DNA of 64,000 nucleotides. It comes from Periplaneta americana. Taxonomy: Eukaryota > Arthropoda > Insecta > Blattodea > Blattidae. The stretch covers positions 129,247,914 to 129,311,913 of the forward strand of contig NC_091130.1 of the NCBI RefSeq assembly GCF_040183065.1, read 5' to 3'. The notes beneath the pieces are model-generated. The model had not been told where the DNA came from. It saw nothing but the letters and a program-made list of their open reading frames with translations, and made no database searches. Within the stretch, counting starts at the first letter, position 1. The number at the start of each line of letters is the position of its first letter. Made by a program: the position numbers and the translations under genes. This document shows positions 4,525-62,794 of this stretch, one piece after another.

Positions 4525-6125
4525 AGTGTTCTGCCCATGGGCAGGTCTTTCACTGCAAACCCTGCTTTCTCTAATCTTTCCTATTTTCTGCCTTCCTTTT
4601 AGTCTCCCCATGTGATCCACATATCTTAATGTCGTCTATCATCTGATCTGATATCTTCTTCTGCCCCAAACTCTTCTCTCATTCACCATTCCTTCCCTTG
4701 CATCCTTCAGTAGGCAGTTTCTTCTCAGCCAGTGACCCAACCAATTCCTTTTTCTCTTTCTGACCAGTTTCAGCATCATTCTTTCTTCACCCACTCTTTT
4801 TAAAACAACTTCATTTCTTATTCTGTCTGTCCATTTCACATGCTCCAGTCTTCTCCATATCCACATTTAAAATGCTTCTATTCGTTTCTCTTCATTTCGT
4901 CGTAATGTCTATGTTTCTGCCCCATACAGTGCCACACTCCACACAAGCACTTCACTAGTCTTTTTCTTAGTTCTTTTTCCAGAGATCCGCAGAAGAGCCT
5001 CCTTTTTCTATTAAAAGCTTCCTTTGCCATTGCTATCCTCCTTTTGATTTCCTGGCTCAACATGTTACTGCTTATAGTACATCCCAAGTATTTGAAGCTG
5101 TTCACTTGCTCTACTGCCTCATTTAGAATTCGCAAGGTTACCTTCTTTATTTTTCTTGTGACAACCATGATCTTCGTCTTGTTTGCATTCATCTTCATTC
5201 CATATTGCTCACAGTTGTAATTTAGCTCCAGTAGCATATTCCTTAGTATCTTCTCCTCTTCTGCTAACAACACCATATCATCAGCAAATCTTATGCACTT
5301 TATTCTTCTTCCTCCTACTTTTACCCCTCCCATGTTCTGAAAGCAGTCCTTTACCAAATCCTCCAAGTAGATATTATTTATTATTATTTTAATGTACCGA
5401 AGTACATATGATATTTCCATGCATGATTTTTCTCCGTTCCATTACTCTTTCTCCAAGTAAAAGTTGAACAGGGTACACCATAAAGGCTAACCTTGTCATA
5501 CTCCTCTCCCTATTTCTCTTCCTTCAGACATTTCTTCTCCTATCCTGACTTTGACTCGTTTCATGTATAGGTTACTGTCTTTTCAATCCACACTTACTCT
5601 CTTCAGGATGTCCATCAGTTTGTTCTAATCCACTCTGTCAGACGCATTTTCTAGGTCCACAAATACTATATACACTTCTTTATTTTTCTCTAGGTATCTT
5701 TTGCTGATTGTTCATAGTAGTTCAATTGCATCCCTTGTACCTTTTCCTTTTCTGAAGCCAGCCGGTCCGGATGGCTCAAGCGGTAGGAGCATGGCATGTC
5801 TCTATCGCTTGGTCCGAAGGGTTGTGGGTTCGAGTCCCGCCTCGGGCATGGGTGTTGTGTTTGCATTAATGTAAGTAAAACAAAGGAAACAAATTAAAAA
5901 CGAAAACAGAAAACAAAGATAACTTTGGTAAACGGCCTCTGGCCGGTCTAAATTTAAAAAAAAAAAGCCAAACTGCTCTTCTTTCAACTGTCCTTCCATC
6001 TTAGAATATAAACGTCGATTCAGTATTCACAGGAGAATCTTCGCCGAGTGCGATATCAGACTGATAGTCCTGAACTCCTTACATTTCTTGGCATTATTTT
6101 TCTTCGGTTTTGGCAGCATTAATGC
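4523..6125 (-). mobile_element. 5'-truncated LINE with reverse transcriptase relic
   Basis: Minus strand. 5420-4878 encodes the RT palm with the FADD catalytic motif (IRFADDMVLLAEEE), the MKMNANKTK region and FKYLGCTIS. 4866-4639 is the C-terminal part (LGHWLRRNCLLKDAREG). Upstream, 6125-5970 still reads RT fingers (FRTISLISHSAKILLRILN) and 5760-5600 continues (TRDAIELL). A SINE at 5762-5966 splits it. Frameshifts and stops show it is dead. Probably a jockey/CR1-type non-LTR element; the clade is not resolved. Confidence 0.75.
5762..5966 (+). repeat. SINE (tRNA-headed) inserted in LINE RT
   Basis: The tRNA-like head has GGATGGCTCAAGCGGTAGGAG and GGTTCGAGTCCCGCCTC, then a body and an A-rich tail. 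It is flanked by short AAGCCA-type repeats and interrupts the LINE RT right after a QFGF codon run. Confidence 0.75.
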
Positions 6126-6349: not shown

Positions 6350-6657
6350 TTTATTGGGATGTGGAAAATTTTGAGGAACAGGATTGGTTAGCTACTGATG
6401 TAGTTGCTAACATCGGCAATGAGGATAAAAGACATCAGACTACAGAAAAACCATTTTCCTGTCTACGTTGTGGTAGAAGCTACAAGAGAAAAGCATCTTT
6501 GAACAGTCATCTTGCAAATGAATGTGGGAAGGAACCACAGTTTCAATGTCCTCGATGTTCATATCGCTGTAAAGTGAAGTCAAACCTCATGAGACATTTT
6601 CGTACCTTCCATCTTACAAACCAAAGGAGTGATCAGATACAGTCAAATTCTGCATAA
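6350..6657 (+). CDS. lola: lola alternative terminal exon a (C2HC + C2H2 finger pair)
   Basis: Seen: a pyrimidine-rich tract and TTGTTGCAG end at 6349. The exon opens with two bases (TT) and then 101 codons to a TAA at 6655-6657. Residues 1-34 are an acidic leader. Finger 1 uses C37, C40, H53 and C58 (C2HC). The ECGKEP linker is at 57-62. Finger 2 uses C66, C69, H82 and H87 (C2H2). Known: this pair with the ECGKEP linker is typical of the C-termini of longitudinals lacking, a BTB transcription factor whose alternative last exons give different DNA-binding specificities in axon guidance and other programmes. Inferred: it is spliced to a constant BTB exon upstream of this window; with a donor exon ending in G the junction codon would be GTT (Val). 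The fingers closely resemble those of exon b. The product acts in the nucleus. The first in-frame GTG at 6361 is not a real start. Which fly isoform it matches cannot be told from sequence alone. Confidence 0.9.
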
Positions 6658-16394: not shown

Positions 16395-16657
16395 GTTTCT
16401 ATGTTGGAGCCAATTTCACTGGAATGCAACATTTTCAACCATTCCAATGCCTACGTTGTGGCCGGACATATAAATGGCGAAGTTCACTCAACAGTCATAT
16501 TCAAAACGAATGTGGGAAAGAGCCACGATTTCAATGCCCATACTGTTCCTATCGTTGTAAAGTAAAATCTAATCTGCTGAAGCATATCCGGAACTCTCAC
16601 AGAGCTCCTACTTCTGACACTTTGGATTCTAAATTATATTCATATAAGTTACTGTGA
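16395..16657 (+). CDS. lola: lola alternative terminal exon b (C2HC + C2H2 finger pair)
   Basis: Seen: the acceptor CTTGTTTCAG ends at 16394. Two bases (GT) precede 86 codons, and the stop TGA is at 16655-16657. Only about 16 residues precede finger 1 (C18, C21, H34, C39). The ECGKEP linker is at 38-43, and finger 2 has C47, C50, H63 and H68. A short hydrophilic tail ends in Leu-Leu. Known: the architecture is that of lola C-terminal exons. The entry phase is identical to every other exon in the array, so each is interchangeable behind the same donor. Compared with exon a, the core GR-S/T-YK and the second-finger block SYRCKVKSNL are shared, so a and b look like duplicates 10 kb apart. An ATG at 16424 lies in frame but inside the exon and need not be used. 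A second frame open across the same stretch is a shadow. The likely poly(A) signal is at 17003, and a 51-bp minisatellite follows. Confidence 0.9.
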
Positions 16658-17008: not shown

Positions 17009-17054
17009 GGCAATGATTTCATACAGCTTATGAAAGAAAGCTCAATAGTTGCGT

Positions 17055-17360
17055 CATTTTTATGTGCTTGGTCACCCATAGAATTTCGATCACATTGACA
17101 TATATCATTTTTATGTGCTTGGTCACCTATAGAATTTCGATCACATTGACATATATCATTTTTATGTGCTTGGTCACCCATAGAATTTCGACCACATTGA
17201 CATATATCATTTTTATGTGCTTGGTCACCCATAGAATTTCGATCATATTGACATATATCATTTTTATATGCTTGGTCATCCATAGAATTTCGACCACATT
17301 GACATATATCATTTTTATATGCTTGGTCACCCATAGAATTTCGATCACATTGACATATAT
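17055..17360. repeat. 51-bp minisatellite, six copies
   Basis: The unit starting CATTTTTATGTGCTTGGTCA repeats at 17055, 17106, 17157, 17208, 17259 and 17310 with few substitutions. Because 51 is a multiple of three, several frames stay open on both strands; these are not genes. It lies about 400 bp after the exon b stop. Confidence 0.95.
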
Positions 17361-24589: not shown

Positions 24590-24885
24590 ATGATTTGACA
24601 GTGGGACATCTGGGTATGTACTGGACTCCTCTCAGCCCTGGTCACCAGTTACAGAGCAGTACAGACGAGTGGAATTCTTCGGCACCAAGTTCCAGTGATA
24701 GTATGCTTATACATGCATGTCCACACTGCACCAAGAGATACAAGTTCCGTACATCTCTTTATCGACATCTGAAATTTGAATGCGGGAAAGAACCCTCATT
24801 CCATTGCCCTCATTGTTCGTACATGACAAAACAAAAAGCACCAATGCAACGTCACATACGCAATACACATGGCATACATGAATGA
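24590..24885 (+). CDS. lola: lola alternative terminal exon c (C2HC + C2H2 finger pair)
   Basis: Seen: the acceptor ATATTTTGCAG ends at 24589. The junction bases AT are followed by 97 codons and a TGA at 24883-24885. Residues 1-41 are a Ser/Pro-rich leader. Finger 1 has C43, C46, H59 and C64, the ECGKEP linker is at 63-68, and finger 2 has C72, C75, H88 and H93. The protein ends four residues later. Known: finger spacing, linker and terminal position match lola alternative exons. Inferred: a donor G gives GAT (Asp) at the junction, as for exons d, e and f. The recognition helices (around FRTSLYR and TKQKAPMQR) differ from exons a and b, which predicts a different DNA target. The intron just upstream holds LINE RNase H debris on the opposite strand. 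AATAAA at 25024 is the nearest poly(A) signal. A TTG codon at 24595 is not a credible start. Confidence 0.9.
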
Positions 24886-28028: not shown

Positions 28029-28949
28029 CGAGGGGGATCCAGGAAATAACGACCGTTTTATTGTAATAATTAAAAAAATATATATTTATTTGAAAAAACA
28101 AAGTCTGTTACATAACTGAAGCTTCCTTTACTTCTCTACATAATCACCACCTACATTTAAACATTTGTCATATCTGTTCACTAGCTTTAGAATTCCCGTG
28201 TTATACTCCTCTGCCGCCAGTTCATTAAGCCAGGTGTTCACTGTCTTCTTCAACTCTTCATCACTTCCAAAACGCGTACCACCCAGAAAGTCTTTCAGCT
28301 TAGCGAAAAGGTGAAAATCGCTAGGAGCAAGGTCTGGACTATAGGGCGGATGATCAAAGATTTCCCAACCGAATTGATCCAGCAATTCTTCGAGTTGAAG
28401 CACCAGTGTGCGGGAGGGCACAGATTTTGTGGTAGCCAAGATGTTGCGACACAATTTCACCAAGCAAAGAACGAGAAATGTCAGGAAAGGCAATATGCAA
28501 TTCGTCGAGTGATGTGCGCCTGTCTTGCAAGATTCTGTCGTTCACTTTAGTCTTCAGGTCTTCTGTGATGAGTGATGGGCGTCCGGGTCGAGTTTCATCG
28601 TGGACATTTGTTCGCCCATTGTTGAACATTTCGCACCATTTTCTCACATTTCTTTCATTCATTACAGTATCACCATACACTTCTTTCAATTGCCGGTAAA
28701 TTTCTGCAGGTTTGAAATGTCGGGCATTCAAAAATCGAATCACACTCCTCACCGCACAGTCGGCGGGATTATCAATCACGTCGTTCATTTTGAAATAACA
28801 CAAAATGCACAATAGCGACTTGTTGCAACCAGTACTCACAACATTATGAGAACACATGTTAAGGAAGCCAGTTGACCTTCAAACAAGGAAGGGGAGTCAG
28901 CTGCGCGCCGGGTATGCGCGAACGGTCGTTATTTCCTGGATCCCCCTCG
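28029..28949 (-). mobile_element. mariner element with internal deletion
   Basis: Inverted ends CGAGGGGGATCCAGGAAATA of about 28 bp, flanked by TA. Minus strand: N-terminal HTH part (28788-28440, CAVRSVIRFLNARHFKPAEI, WCEMFNNGRTNVHDE, GRPSLITEDL) and the C-terminal catalytic block (YSPDLAPSDFHLF) at about 28340. The stretch with the first two catalytic Asp is missing: 921 bp against roughly 1.3 kb for the family. Confidence 0.9.
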
Positions 28950-39347: not shown

Positions 39348-39691
39348 ATATGGTTTCTATACTGCATGATGAAAGAATCTGGGGTCGTTCTAAATCGTCG
39401 TGGACTTCAGCAGTAGACTGTGATGATGGTTCAGATGTTATCCAAGCAATTCTTCAACAAGCTTCAGGATGTCACGTGGAAACAGACATGATTTCAAGTG
39501 CATTTGTATGCCCTCAGTGTGGAAAGAACTACCGTTACAAGTGTTCATTGCGACGACATCTGGTAGTGGAATGTGGGAAAGAACCACAGTTCTCTTGTCC
39601 GCATTGTCACAGGAAGATTAGACATAAACATGATTTGGTTGTGCATATGAAAACATATTGCCCCGTACTGAGAAGGCGACAGTTAATGTAA
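39348..39691 (+). CDS. lola: lola alternative terminal exon d (two C2HC-type fingers)
   Basis: Seen: the acceptor CATTTACAG ends at 39347. The junction bases AT precede 113 codons to a TAA at 39689-39691. Residues 1-52 form a leader rich in Asp and Ser. Finger 1 has C54, C57, H70 and C75, and the ECGKEP linker spans 74-79. Finger 2 has C83, C86 and H99, and the last ligand position is C104, not His. Known: lola family exon; finger 1 is always C2HC in this family, while finger 2 is usually C2H2. Odd: finger 2 here would be C2HC as well. The reading frame stays open upstream to an ATG at 39272 and would give a hydrophobic N-terminus, but that part is the intron's branch and pyrimidine region and I reject it. 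A Tigger-like transposon starts 95 bp after the stop, so the 3' UTR is either very short or includes transposon sequence. No AATAAA lies before the transposon. Confidence 0.9.
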
Positions 39692-45180: not shown

Positions 45181-45740
45181 AATTAATTCATAGTTCCATT
45201 TGGTCATGCTACTTATTCAGTGTAGAGTGTTGTGTATTATACCAGACTGCTTGTGAATAATAAAGAAAATAACAAGTCCTTTAATAAAAAAAGAAAATAT
45301 GTATCTTCGATTAATTGGAGTATAGGAAGTAGATATAAATTACAATCTAAATGTTCCTGGTGTTAATTATATTTATAATTATTTCAGTGTTCTAGTTATG
45401 ATTGTTATAAGAAAGAATCTATTCATTCTGCCATAGCCTTTCTACATTAAACCTAGCAACTAACAAATGCTATCTAATGCTGTAATTTTATCAGAATATT
45501 CACATCACATAATCATTTGTTTCACTACATATTAATATGTCCAGTAAAAATGAACTTGTACCTAATATTTGGTATAAATGTTAAAGTCCATGTCTTCGTG
45601 GTACTTGAGTTGTCAGTGTTCTATTTTTGTTTGAAGAGTATCTTTTATTTTTTTTATTAGCCTATATTTCGTAATTCAAAATATTTTTGCATTTAAAATT
45701 GCGTCAGTTAACATATCTTTTGTCTTTTCCTTTATTCCAG

Positions 45741-46729
45741 ATACTGAACTTGATGGACCTTCAAATAAGAACAGTCGTGCTTTGATAAGTTTGGTTCCAA
45801 CAGTAAGGCTATTGGAAAAAACTGCATCAGATGATGATACACATGTTAAAATGGAATCTGAGGACCCACCAGTCAATTTAACACTATCACCTACTAATTC
45901 TGTGACTGATCGAAGTGCAGTTCTTTCTAAAGAATCGTATAGAAATAATTTGAACAATACTACTGATTCAGGCACTCATGATGTGTTTCTAGTAAAAGAT
46001 AAAACTAATTGTGAAATCGTTTCCCCAGCCACCAAGCTAATGGGTTCTGACGGTTCTAATGTAGTCCATCATAAAACTATTAAATCTCCATTAGTATTAA
46101 AAAGTGCTTCAACTAATTCAAGAGTTATAACAGTGAAAGGTATTAATAAGCCATCACAGGGTTCATTTGATAATTTGAAAAAAATGAAACACAACATTAT
46201 TGTTGGCAAGCAGCTTGATACAGGAAGAATAGTAAAAATGAAAGTACTGAATCCAGTAATGTTGAATACCAGTATTTTTGCAAACAACAGAGTATCGAAT
46301 GCTCAAAGTCCTTCTTCACTTTGTATCTCTTCAGTCATGGGTACTGGAAACATTGCTTCAAGTTCTTCTGCAATTACATCTGGAAGAACTATTTCATTAG
46401 ATCCAAAAATTGTTTCTTCACGTTCACTTACCAATACTGAAGCAAAAATGATTGTGGAACCACTTAATACTGATAAAAATACACCCACATACAGTAATGT
46501 TAAGAGAAAAGCAGAAAATGATGTCAGCATAGTTTTTGAAAAGGGAGGTGAACCTGATGTTCAGATACTATCAAAAAAGGAACAAAATGCCCAGAATTCA
46601 TCATCTCTAAAAGAAAACGCAACTTTGAAGTTAAGTAACGTGAAAGAAAGAACTCAGAAATTTATTGTAACTTCCATAACATGTCCTTCAATTGAGAAAT
46701 ATAAAACTAGCAAATCGCACTGCAATTGA
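45741..46729 (+). CDS. lola: Candidate finger-less lola alternative terminal exon e
   Basis: Seen: the acceptor TCCTTTATTCCAG ends at 45740. Two junction bases (AT) precede 328 codons to a TGA at 46727-46729; this is by far the longest open frame in the window. The product is rich in Ser, Thr, Asn and Lys, has no Cys/His finger and no membrane segment, and looks intrinsically disordered. A SUMO-type motif VKME sits at residues 35-38, followed by an acidic patch. A basic NVKRK lies near residue 252. AATAAA occurs at 46942. Inferred: it sits between zinc-finger exons on the same strand and is entered in exactly the same phase with the same AT junction as exons c, d and f, so I take it as an alternative C-terminus of lola without a DNA-binding domain. 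Known: some fly lola isoforms lack zinc fingers. Alternatives are an internal exon with a hidden donor, or an exon of an unrelated gene inside the intron; the phase match makes these less likely. Confidence 0.65.
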
Positions 46730-46941: not shown

Positions 46942-46947
46942 AATAAA
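46942..46947 (+). terminator. Candidate poly(A) signal for the finger-less exon e
   Basis: AATAAA followed by a second overlapping ATAAA run, 213 bp after the stop. It supports a terminal rather than internal exon. Confidence 0.4.
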
Positions 46948-53759: not shown

Positions 53760-55003
53760 TTTAAAAACATAAAATTACTTAGTCACACGTTAAAAAGTGT
53801 TAGAATTTTAAAAAAAGGTACAGTATATACCTTCGACAGATAGCCCGTTTCGACGTGATGTTACGTCTTCATCAGTGTCTCCTGTATTACTGGTGATCTT
53901 GAATTCTGCGATGTGCATTTGTCGATTGTAGGGGTGGGAGTATGTTGCTCTTATGGTGGGGGCTGGTTGTTTGTGTGTTATGACGTATCATGACGTCGAA
54001 TAATGTGTGGGTATTGAACTGTAATTGTGTATTAAGTATATGTTGTGGGTATGTTATTGTATGTTTATATATTTCTAAGATGCTTAACTGTGAACTTTTT
54101 GGTGTGATGTGTAAAATTTCCATATCTCTTTCTATATTATTGTAGTCATGATTATTGTTGATAATGTGGTCTGCGTAATTTGATGTGATGTAGGGTTTGG
54201 TTATAGCTTTAATATGTTCATTATATCTTGTGTGAAAGGATCTTCCTGTCTGTCCTATGTAAAAATGTGGGCAACTATTGCATTTTAGTTTGTAAAGTCC
54301 AGTTGAATTATATTTATTTGAATGTTTAAAGTGATTATTTAGATATTTCTGTGTTGTGTTTCATTCAGAAAACTAAAATACAAGATAGCATACAAAACAA
54401 ATAACACAACACAGAAATATCTAAATAATCACTTTAAACATTCAAATAAATATAATTCAACTGGAGTTTACAAACTAAAATGCAATAGTTGCCCACATTT
54501 TTACATAGGACAGACAGGAAGATCCTTTCACACAAGATATAATGAACATATTAAAGCTATAACCAAACCCTACATCACATCAAATTATGCAGACACATTA
54601 TCAACAATAATCATGACTACAATAATATAGAAACAGATATGGAAATTTTACACATCACACCAAGAAGTTCACAGTTAAACATCTTAGAACAATACGAAAT
54701 ATATAAACATACAATAACATACCCACAATATATACTTAATACACAATTACAGTTCAATACTCGCACATTATTCGACGTCATGATACGTCATAACACACAA
54801 ACAACCAGCCCCCACCATAAGAACAACATACTCCCACCCTACAATCGACAAATGCACATCACAGAATTCAAGATCACCAGTAGTTCAAGAGACACTGATG
54901 AAGACGTAACATCACGTCGAAACGGGCCATCTGCCGAACGTATATACCTTTTTTTTTAAATTTCAACACTTTTTAATGTGTGACTAAGTAATTTTATGTT
55001 TTT
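53760..55003. mobile_element. Head-to-head Penelope-like fragments (family 4)
   Basis: Two about 600-bp arms (53760-54360 minus, 54403-55003 plus) with a 42-bp centre. The + arm encodes a GIY-YIG endonuclease region (HFYIGQTGRSF near 54500, EQYEIYKHT near 54690), typical of Penelope-like retroelements. The reverse transcriptase is absent. Both copies are broken fossils, and the close similarity of the arms suggests a fairly recent origin of the pair. Confidence 0.8.
54895..54922 (+). ncRNA. Hammerhead-like core motif (family 4)
   Basis: CTGATGA plus one base, stem GACGT/ACGTC, loop AACATC, GAAA. Mirror on minus at 53848-53875. It lies at the end of the GIY-YIG frame. Confidence 0.3.
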
Positions 55004-55488
55004 AACAAAGAAAGTGTTAACGTGAACTTTAATCAATGAAATAATCTTTTGTATAATTGTAAATTATTTACTTAAGAAAATGAAGAGAGTATCAGTAGTA
55101 ACTCAAAATTCCCTCCATTACCCTCATAAGTGGTGAACAAGTCATATAGTATTAACCTTATCTCTAGCATTACCGCTCTGAGTAAGTTTTATATTATTTG
55201 GTTGAATTAATAATACTCAACATATATTTGCACACCTTGTACCCACATTGGTATCACTTGTGAGGTTCAAATCTGTCTTCGGACATTTGACTAAATAACA
55301 AATCTATACATGAGGTCGTGAAAACCCAATGCATTACTTCCCACACAGCAATCTCACAGCTCGGTAAGAATGCTGGTAAGTTAGGTTTGCTGTAAGCTCC
55401 ACACAGTACACAGTGCGTGGGTTTTCCTTATCAGTTTTTGCATTACACTGGTGACACAATTCTGCTGACACTTTACATTATCAGTCTC

Positions 55489-61285: not shown

Positions 61286-62176
61286 CTTACTTACTTACTG
61301 GCTTTTAAGGAACCCAGAGGTTCATTGCCGCCCTCACATAAGCCCGCCATCGGTCCCTATCCTGAGCAAAATTAATCCATTCTCTATCATCATATCCCAC
61401 CTCCCTCAAATCCATTTTAATATTGTCTTCCCATCTACGTCTCGGCCTCCCTAAAGGTCTTTTTCCCTCCGGCCTCCCAACTAACACTCTATATGCATTT
61501 CTGGATTCGCCCATACGTGCTACATGCCCTGCCCATCTCAAACGTCTGGATTTAATGTTCCTAATTATGTCAGGTGAAGAATACAATGCGTGCAGTTCTG
61601 TGTTGTGTAACATTCTCCATTCTCCTGTAACTTCATCCCTCTTAGCCCCAAATATTTTCCTAAGCACCTTATTCTCAAACACCCTTAATCTCTCTTCCTT
61701 TCTCAAAGTGAGAGTCAAAGTTTCACAACCATAAAGAACAACCGGTAATATAACTGTTTCATAAATTCTAACTTTCAGATTTTTCGACAGCAGACTGGAT
61801 GATAAAAGTTTCTCAACCGATCAATAACAGGCATTTCCCATATTTATTCTGTGTTTAATTTCCTCCCAAGTATCATTTATATTTGTTACTGTTGCTCCCA
61901 GATATTTGAACTTCTCCACATCTTCGAAAGATAAATTTCCAATTTTTATATTTCCATATCGTACAATATTCTGGTCACGAGACATAATCATATACTTTGT
62001 CTTTTCGGGATTTACTTCCAAACCTATCTCTTTACTTGCTTCCAGTAAAATTCCCGTGTTTTCCCTAATCGTTTGTGGATTTTCTCCTAACATATTCACG
62101 TCATCTGCATAGACAAGCAGCTGATGTAACCCGTTCAATTCCAAACCCTCTCTGTTATCCTGGACTTTCCTAATGG
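61286..62176 (-). mobile_element. 5'-truncated LINE with intact target duplication
   Basis: Flanked by CAAATTAATTA at 61275-61285 and 62177-62187. Minus strand: RT palm with catalytic YADD ([16 protein letters not shown], 62125-62080) and the [10 protein letters not shown] block, then the C-terminal tail (RRLRWAGHVARMGESRNAY). A frame change separates the two pieces (62144-61821 and 61718-61305). (TAAG)n tail. Confidence 0.9.
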
Positions 62177-62441
62177 CAAATTAATTAATATGTTTTAATC
62201 ATATCTAACCATTTCATGATGAATTCTCCAGCTGTGTAACACATGTGAATATATTTATATCACCTTATTCCTGACTGTACAGAAGAAAGCTTATTATTAT
62301 TATTGGGTATTATTTGTCAACAGGCATTAATTCAGTATAATGTACTTAATTTTAATTGTTTGTCATATGTTAAAACATGAGATTGATATGTATTGTCATT
62401 CATAATCATACTAACCGTTAGCTATGATTTATTTATTACAG

Positions 62442-62794
62442 ATCATTTGGTTTTTGACATGGAAGATGGGATGGTAGATGCTCAAGTGTTTATGAATAGA
62501 GAATTACTGGGACAACAAACTGTAGGAGAAGAACAACAACTCTACCCATGCCCAAGATGTAAGAAAGTGTATCGCTGGATGATCTCGCTTCGCAGACATA
62601 TTCGTCTTGAGTGCGGTCAAGAACCTAAACATCATTGTTTATATTGTGGAAGAAAATTTAAACACAAACATCATCTGATTGGTCACATGGCTATACATGT
62701 AAGGCGGGGCCATCAGCTGAGAACATTGCCCATTTTAAATATTCAAAATTTCGATATTCCTGGTTCTTCTATAGAGGAGAGGAAAGGAACATAA
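62442..62794 (+). CDS. lola: lola alternative terminal exon f (C2HC + C2H2 finger pair)
   Basis: Seen: the acceptor TTTATTACAG ends at 62441. The junction bases AT are followed by 116 codons and a TAA at 62792-62794. An acidic/Gln leader (1-35) precedes finger 1 (C36, C39, H52, C57). The linker here is ECGQEP (56-61) instead of ECGKEP. Finger 2 has C65, C68, H81 and H85, with a three-residue His spacing that is shorter than in exons a-c. A 31-residue basic-then-acidic tail follows. Known: lola-type terminal exon. Its fingers are closest in this window to exon d (shared SLRRH in finger 1, and the HKH run before the finger-2 helix). A LINE copy with intact target duplications ends about 255 bp before the acceptor. 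AATAAA at 62976 is a good poly(A) signal. An upstream in-frame ATG at 62393 lies in the intron and is not a start. Confidence 0.9.

Follow-up and report, generated by a model that had tools for sequence, protein, structure and literature searches.

A probable fingerless terminal exon within the lola finger-exon array of a cockroach

Introduction

Three of the 20 Lola isoforms of the fly are reported to lack zinc fingers (PMC5127561, PMC1947980), and regulation through heteromers with such fingerless forms was proposed in 2007 (PMC1947980). The locus described here raises the question of whether a long open frame without fingers, exon X, which lies among the finger-pair exons of a cockroach lola array, is an ending of the same kind, and what its product would do. 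The window, the whole stretch of DNA that was analysed, comprises 64 kb (C14:129247914-129311913) with exon X starting at C14:129293654 on the + strand; the region examined comprised 294 kb, that is, the window extended by 200 kb on its upstream side and 30 kb on its downstream side. Coordinates are those of the window unless a contig is named. A sequence-only reading of this DNA had proposed X as a fingerless alternative lola exon, and had noted that some fly isoforms are fingerless, as the sources cited above state. A fingerless lola ending is therefore already known from the fly, and X would be a further case, from an insect only distantly related, accompanied by a sibling, exon Y, in the same array; no paper on cockroach lola exons was found in the open-access literature, outside of which most subscription papers fall. 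It is considered somewhat probable that X is a genuine fingerless terminal exon of lola whose BTB-bearing product enters Lola multimers and changes them. If X is joined to the BTB exon, the fly type of fingerless Lola also occurs in an insect that is far removed from the fly and whose lola locus is huge, with at least two fingerless forms there.

The array of finger-pair exons

The + strand of the 294 kb encodes 22 pairs of adjacent lola-type fingers (CxxC...YK..SL..H...ECG.EP...C..C), and the − strand none; their exons span window coordinates -186835 to 87799, and a further 20 kb upstream of the 294 kb holds no finger pair, just transposon-like frames. The window contains five of them, all + strand terminal exons: E1 (6350..6657, junction TT), E2 (16395..16657, junction GT), E3 (24590..24885, junction AT), E4 (39348..39691, junction AT) and E5 (62442..62794, junction AT), the last being the next finger exon 3' of X. 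In 21 of the 22 finger exons the acceptor with the top score is a phase-1 one; the sole exception is E3, where the phase-1 acceptor is outscored by another AG at 24636. The leaders (acceptor to first finger) of 19 of the 22 contain a tryptophan and are otherwise dissimilar; tryptophan is absent from X altogether, and Y has a single one.

Nasonia and Apis lola show 181 and 58 observed introns, respectively, from one hub exon (PMC5000498). The present array is alike in that one common region would serve many 3' ends spread across hundreds of kb; however, the ends are fewer in this insect, with 24 in the 294 kb read, and according to PMC5000498 no non-hymenopteran has a similarly large lola expansion.

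Exon X and its coding signal

Exon X (45741..46729, +) consists of 328 codons and a stop, and is entered at codon position 2, equivalent to phase 1. It is preceded by a polypyrimidine tract and acceptor at 45721..45740 (tgtcttttcctttattccag), which is pyrimidine-rich and ends in ccag; the junction cag|ATACTGAA falls at 45741. On a home-made scale the acceptor scores 1.13, inside the range of 0.78-1.19 seen for the finger exons (n = 22). Entry in the phase of the array, as claimed for X by the sequence-only reading, thus agrees with the finger exons whose best acceptor is in phase 1. The AT at the junction had also been taken as a mark of the array; AT is found in three of the five finger exons of the window and in only 5 of the 22 across the 294 kb, and because of this it carries no weight and was rejected as a mark of membership. 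The stop and the nearby AATAAA that had been pointed out are both present, the former ending at 46729 and the latter at 46942..46947, 212 nt after the stop; AATAAA is common by chance, occurring in 25% of random 220-nt windows, and lies near 10 of the 22 finger exons. The splice into X and its poly(A) site are predicted.

The frame of X extends over 364 codons from stop to stop, while the longest run per simulated window is 102-164 codons (40 Markov-1 simulations of the window). Its codon-position asymmetry is greater than that of all 497 control windows, which overlap, and is matched by none of 1000 stop-free simulations; the RNY excess is likewise matched by 0/1000. In 14 of 14 open sixty-codon windows the ORF frame tops the other two, and in such windows periodicity tracks this frame from 45743 to approximately 46640, waning over the last ~30 codons. 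Periodicity was also looked for in the last 59 codons and is absent there, its value being reached by 561 of 1000 simulations; the exon may therefore end sooner. No ORF of at least 100 codons lies on the − strand beneath X. When codon usage is modelled chiefly from finger exons, X scores 0.013 bits per codon, which is barely positive, with -0.146 and -0.106 for the other two frames; 16 finger exons score 0.05-0.32 bits per codon under the same model. This weak score speaks for a chance or decayed open frame; however, the length and periodicity of X are far beyond those of the simulations, the acceptor and phase fit, and such an origin is considered very improbable. By its sequence, exon X is real.

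The DNA of X has one match in the 3.23-Gb genome (own assembly, 91 contigs), and on this search it is not a repeat; with the single genome match, and no likeness elsewhere in the 294 kb, a repeat or transposon origin is unsupported.

Membership of the lola array

X shares the + strand with the lola BTB/common exons and lies 3' of them; it has its own stop, and its best internal donor is below the median for random windows when scored with a weight matrix. It is not of the C2H2 BTB-zinc-finger type, since the exon encodes no C2H2 or CCHC finger. When set against the 22 finger-pair exons of its own array and the finger-bearing isoforms of the fly (17 of 20), X is alike in strand, phase-1 entry, its own stop and a strong acceptor, but differs from them in lacking a CCHC/C2H2 finger and a leader tryptophan, and in being about three times the length of most. 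An intronic k-mer common to the array acceptors, sought as an independent test of membership for X, was not found.

The likeness in entry does not extend to the coding sequence: X resembles no other array exon in the 294 kb (best other tblastn match E 0.14), as would be the case if X were part of a separate gene nested on this strand of the array, and phase 1 would fit such a gene by chance one time in three. Against a nested gene, no + frame of at least 100 codons is present from the end of E4 (39691) to X, X contains no known domain, and the same array holds Y, a second fingerless exon sharing the entry phase and the acceptor quality; a nested gene is hence regarded as improbable, if less so than a chance frame. 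Membership of lola is the preferred reading: as had been claimed of a lola terminal exon without fingers, the phase, acceptor, periodicity, strand and place among the finger exons all fit.

Exon Y was found by ranking phase-1 frames behind a good acceptor across 264 kb, in which it came top by total codon score. It is a 599-codon terminal exon without fingers, entered in phase 1, at C14:129208094-129209895 (window coordinates -39819 to -38018), 85.6 kb upstream of X, with an acceptor score of 1.13, equal to that of X. Its product starts VKIEIIPSLLIKEEPFEDP, and the last ~120 residues carry repeated Q[FLM]Q-V-P-like units; it has no finger and no Pfam family above the cut-off. The asymmetry of Y is unmatched in simulations (0/1000), its RNY share is not significant (186/1000), and Y may be part of a repeat. 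Among the 45 of 72 candidates listed it is the sole long fingerless frame besides X; short ones escape the scan. The earlier statement that every other array exon codes for a finger pair is correct inside the window (5/5) and fails for the fingerless Y outside it; the view of X as a unique oddity is rejected, Y being the second fingerless exon. Kinship of X and Y was undetected (blastp E 0.11, without composition correction), and that the two are relatives is therefore unsupported.

The common region upstream

Among the 111 BTB matches listed for the genome, two adjoining matches on the same strand fall at C14:128136152-128136555. They belong to a lola-like BTB and linker at C14:128136089-128137336 (+), arranged as two exons with a 116-base intron between them, which encode MGSEQQFCLKWNNHQST... 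and ...EKHPIVILKDVKFQELKAMVDYMYHGEVNISQDQLGALLKAAESLQIK. Identity of these exons with the BTB of fly Lola is 79% and 85%; the locus is the best of nine BTB loci compared from the 111 listed, the other eight reaching 29-65%. The second exon continues into a proline-rich linker ending ...SVEDLTLDDDMDEMDHARPGPSHGGEGSSSQGAG, with the donor CAG|GTCAGT in phase 1. The BTB exons are located 1.16 Mb upstream of X and on the + strand like X; their upstream place, orientation and phase-1 donor make a common region available to X. No hub (last common) exon turned up in the sequence read, whose array part begins ~0.89 Mb downstream of the BTB exons. The lola locus would span at least 1.2 Mb, and judging from the arrangement of strand and phase, X would be joined to the BTB exon.

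Terminal exon or linker exon

The best internal GT of X, GAG|GTGAAC at 46548..46549 (+), is in phase 1 and has a donor score of 2.92. Were this donor used, X would be a linker exon joined to a downstream finger exon, e.g., E5, and would yield a finger isoform with a long linker. Such an arrangement has the right phase, and codon periodicity is absent 3' of 46548, the quiet last 59 codons (561/1000 simulations) that keep the linker reading alive; two-exon lola 3' ends exist in Nasonia and Apis (PMC5000498), and the fly Lola-I is described with ~420 isoform-specific residues, fingers excluded (PMC10514308). However, the donor is weak: in 300 random windows of 989 nt the best donor has a median score of 3.84, 65% of these windows have one as good or better, and the donors of the lola common exons score 5.6 and 6.7. 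Furthermore, the frame of X stays open for ~60 codons beyond 46548, periodicity in 60-codon windows reaches ~46640, and E5 is 15.7 kb off and has a phase-1 acceptor of its own by which it could be joined to the common region. Between X and E5 no finger-like match was found on the + strand except a transposon-like one at 54481. With a weak donor, no fingers before E5 and E5 at such a distance, a terminal exon is favoured over a linker exon on these sequence features, and the linker arrangement is considered unlikely.

The predicted tail of X

As a terminal exon, X would provide a tail of 328 residues, which had been described as disordered. The length is as described; the disorder is less clear, as it rests on a single-sequence AlphaFold model with a mean pLDDT of 32 and 328 of 328 residues below 50, while charge-hydropathy places X just on the ordered side (0.445 against a boundary of 0.428). 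The low pLDDT fits disorder and fits equally any protein folded without an alignment; the model is uninformative and was rejected as a guide to structure. No Pfam family scores above the cut-off for X (best Fe-ADH, E 0.072), and searches gave no match in NCBIfam or, up to E 10, in the PDB, no finger pattern, no Pfam finger and, in one scan, no relative on a viral contig.

Near its start the tail carries VKME followed by acidic residues (S-E-D) at 45845..45856 (+, motif scan), which we take to be a SUMO-type site. The motif named in the sequence-only reading is thus present; its count is no more than chance, with one [VIL]KxE in X (shuffle P 0.29). For its falling among the first 40 residues P is 0.04, and for the acidic-SUMO pattern 0.014, the pattern having been picked after viewing the sequence. 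Close by, PVNLT at 45869..45883 (+; shuffle P 0.07) is presumably a short motif of the CtBP type. Y has three [VIL]KxE sites in its first 40 residues (0/5000 shuffles), whereas 2 of the 22 finger exons have one; VKIE and IKEE fall within the first 15 residues of Y, and two sites there occur in 0/5000 shuffles. The SUMO- and CtBP-type motifs of X and Y, being sequence matches, are leads rather than results. That X and Y form a distinct fingerless class with acidic SUMO-type starts, in X the VKME followed by PVNLT, serving as dedicated corepressor-docking subunits within Lola multimers and as old as the split between this lineage and the fly, is a speculative proposal that is held with little confidence.

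Proposed mechanism

It is proposed that the lola common region (BTB and linker) would be spliced in phase 1 either to X or to any one of the finger-pair exons, of which there are at least 22. Choice of X would give a Lola with the shared BTB and a 328-residue low-complexity tail but with no known DNA-binding domain; through the BTB this product would join multimers of Lola and of other Tramtrack-group proteins. Multimers containing it would have fewer DNA-binding fingers per complex and would carry whatever the tail binds, for which the acidic SUMO-type and CtBP-like patch near the start of X may be the best docking candidate. In solution the LOLA BTB is reported as a hexamer (PMC11426971), and heteromers can form among co-expressed Lola proteins (PMC3262752); by analogy with fly Lola, the product of X would enter multimers, and a regulatory effect would be expected to follow. 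A BTB-only Lola subunit that modulates finger-bearing Lola multimers is most likely what X produces; the idea of tuning by BTB-only subunits was stated for the fly in 2007 (PMC1947980), and X and Y would offer two concrete tails for asking whether such subunits tune multimeric Lola.

The closest known systems are the fingerless Lola isoforms of the fly (3 of 20, including Lola A), which X resembles in being an alternative 3' exon without a zinc finger; the common/BTB region would be shared, as we infer from the locus, and X is set beside the fly tails by description. According to PMC1947980, overexpression of Lola A, which has no Zn-finger, left wiring without detectable defects in projection-neuron clones that were otherwise wild-type, whereas overexpression of Lola L and T did give wiring defects. 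This result disfavours a simple dominant modulator, as which the product of X had been envisaged, and is consistent with X being a lola terminal exon whose product is no modulator at all, its tail having a job of its own (localisation, cofactor scaffold or degradation signal) or being near-neutral; the tail, with no Pfam family above the cut-off and no NCBIfam or PDB match, would suit this as well. However, any Lola-BTB protein should enter multimers of Lola (PMC11426971, PMC3262752), each of the Lola A, L and T transgenes was lethal when expressed broadly, and dendrites were reduced by Lola A in lola-null clones (PMC1947980); a product without modulating function is accordingly thought doubtful, to about the same degree as a linker exon. 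Because the BTB is shared and associates, yet the overexpression phenotypes of fly Lola A are mixed, the effect of a non-DNA-binding Lola partner is considered to be modest and tuning of multimers to be its likeliest mechanism. A mirror image of this arrangement is seen in Lola29F, which is cleaved from fly Lola type Q and has no BTB (PMC6329818); the likeness is that a Lola form minus one functional half antagonises the full form, but Lola29F keeps the fingers, lacks the BTB, and arises from proteolysis rather than splicing (PMC6329818).

Repeats in the window

A minisatellite of six 51-base units (95% matches) lies at 17054-17360, 0.4 kb after E2, with both strands open. Transposon-like frames are interspersed among the lola exons at 28354-28878 (−), 4878-5441 (−) and 61305-62180 (−), which we take to resemble a mariner-type transposase and fragments of non-LTR reverse transcriptase. 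At 53761-55005 there is a large, near-perfect inverted repeat with five arm pairs that are 93-99% complementary and 42 nt at the centre; it contains a frame with what is presumably a GIY-YIG-like stretch and probably represents two head-to-head copies of a transposon.
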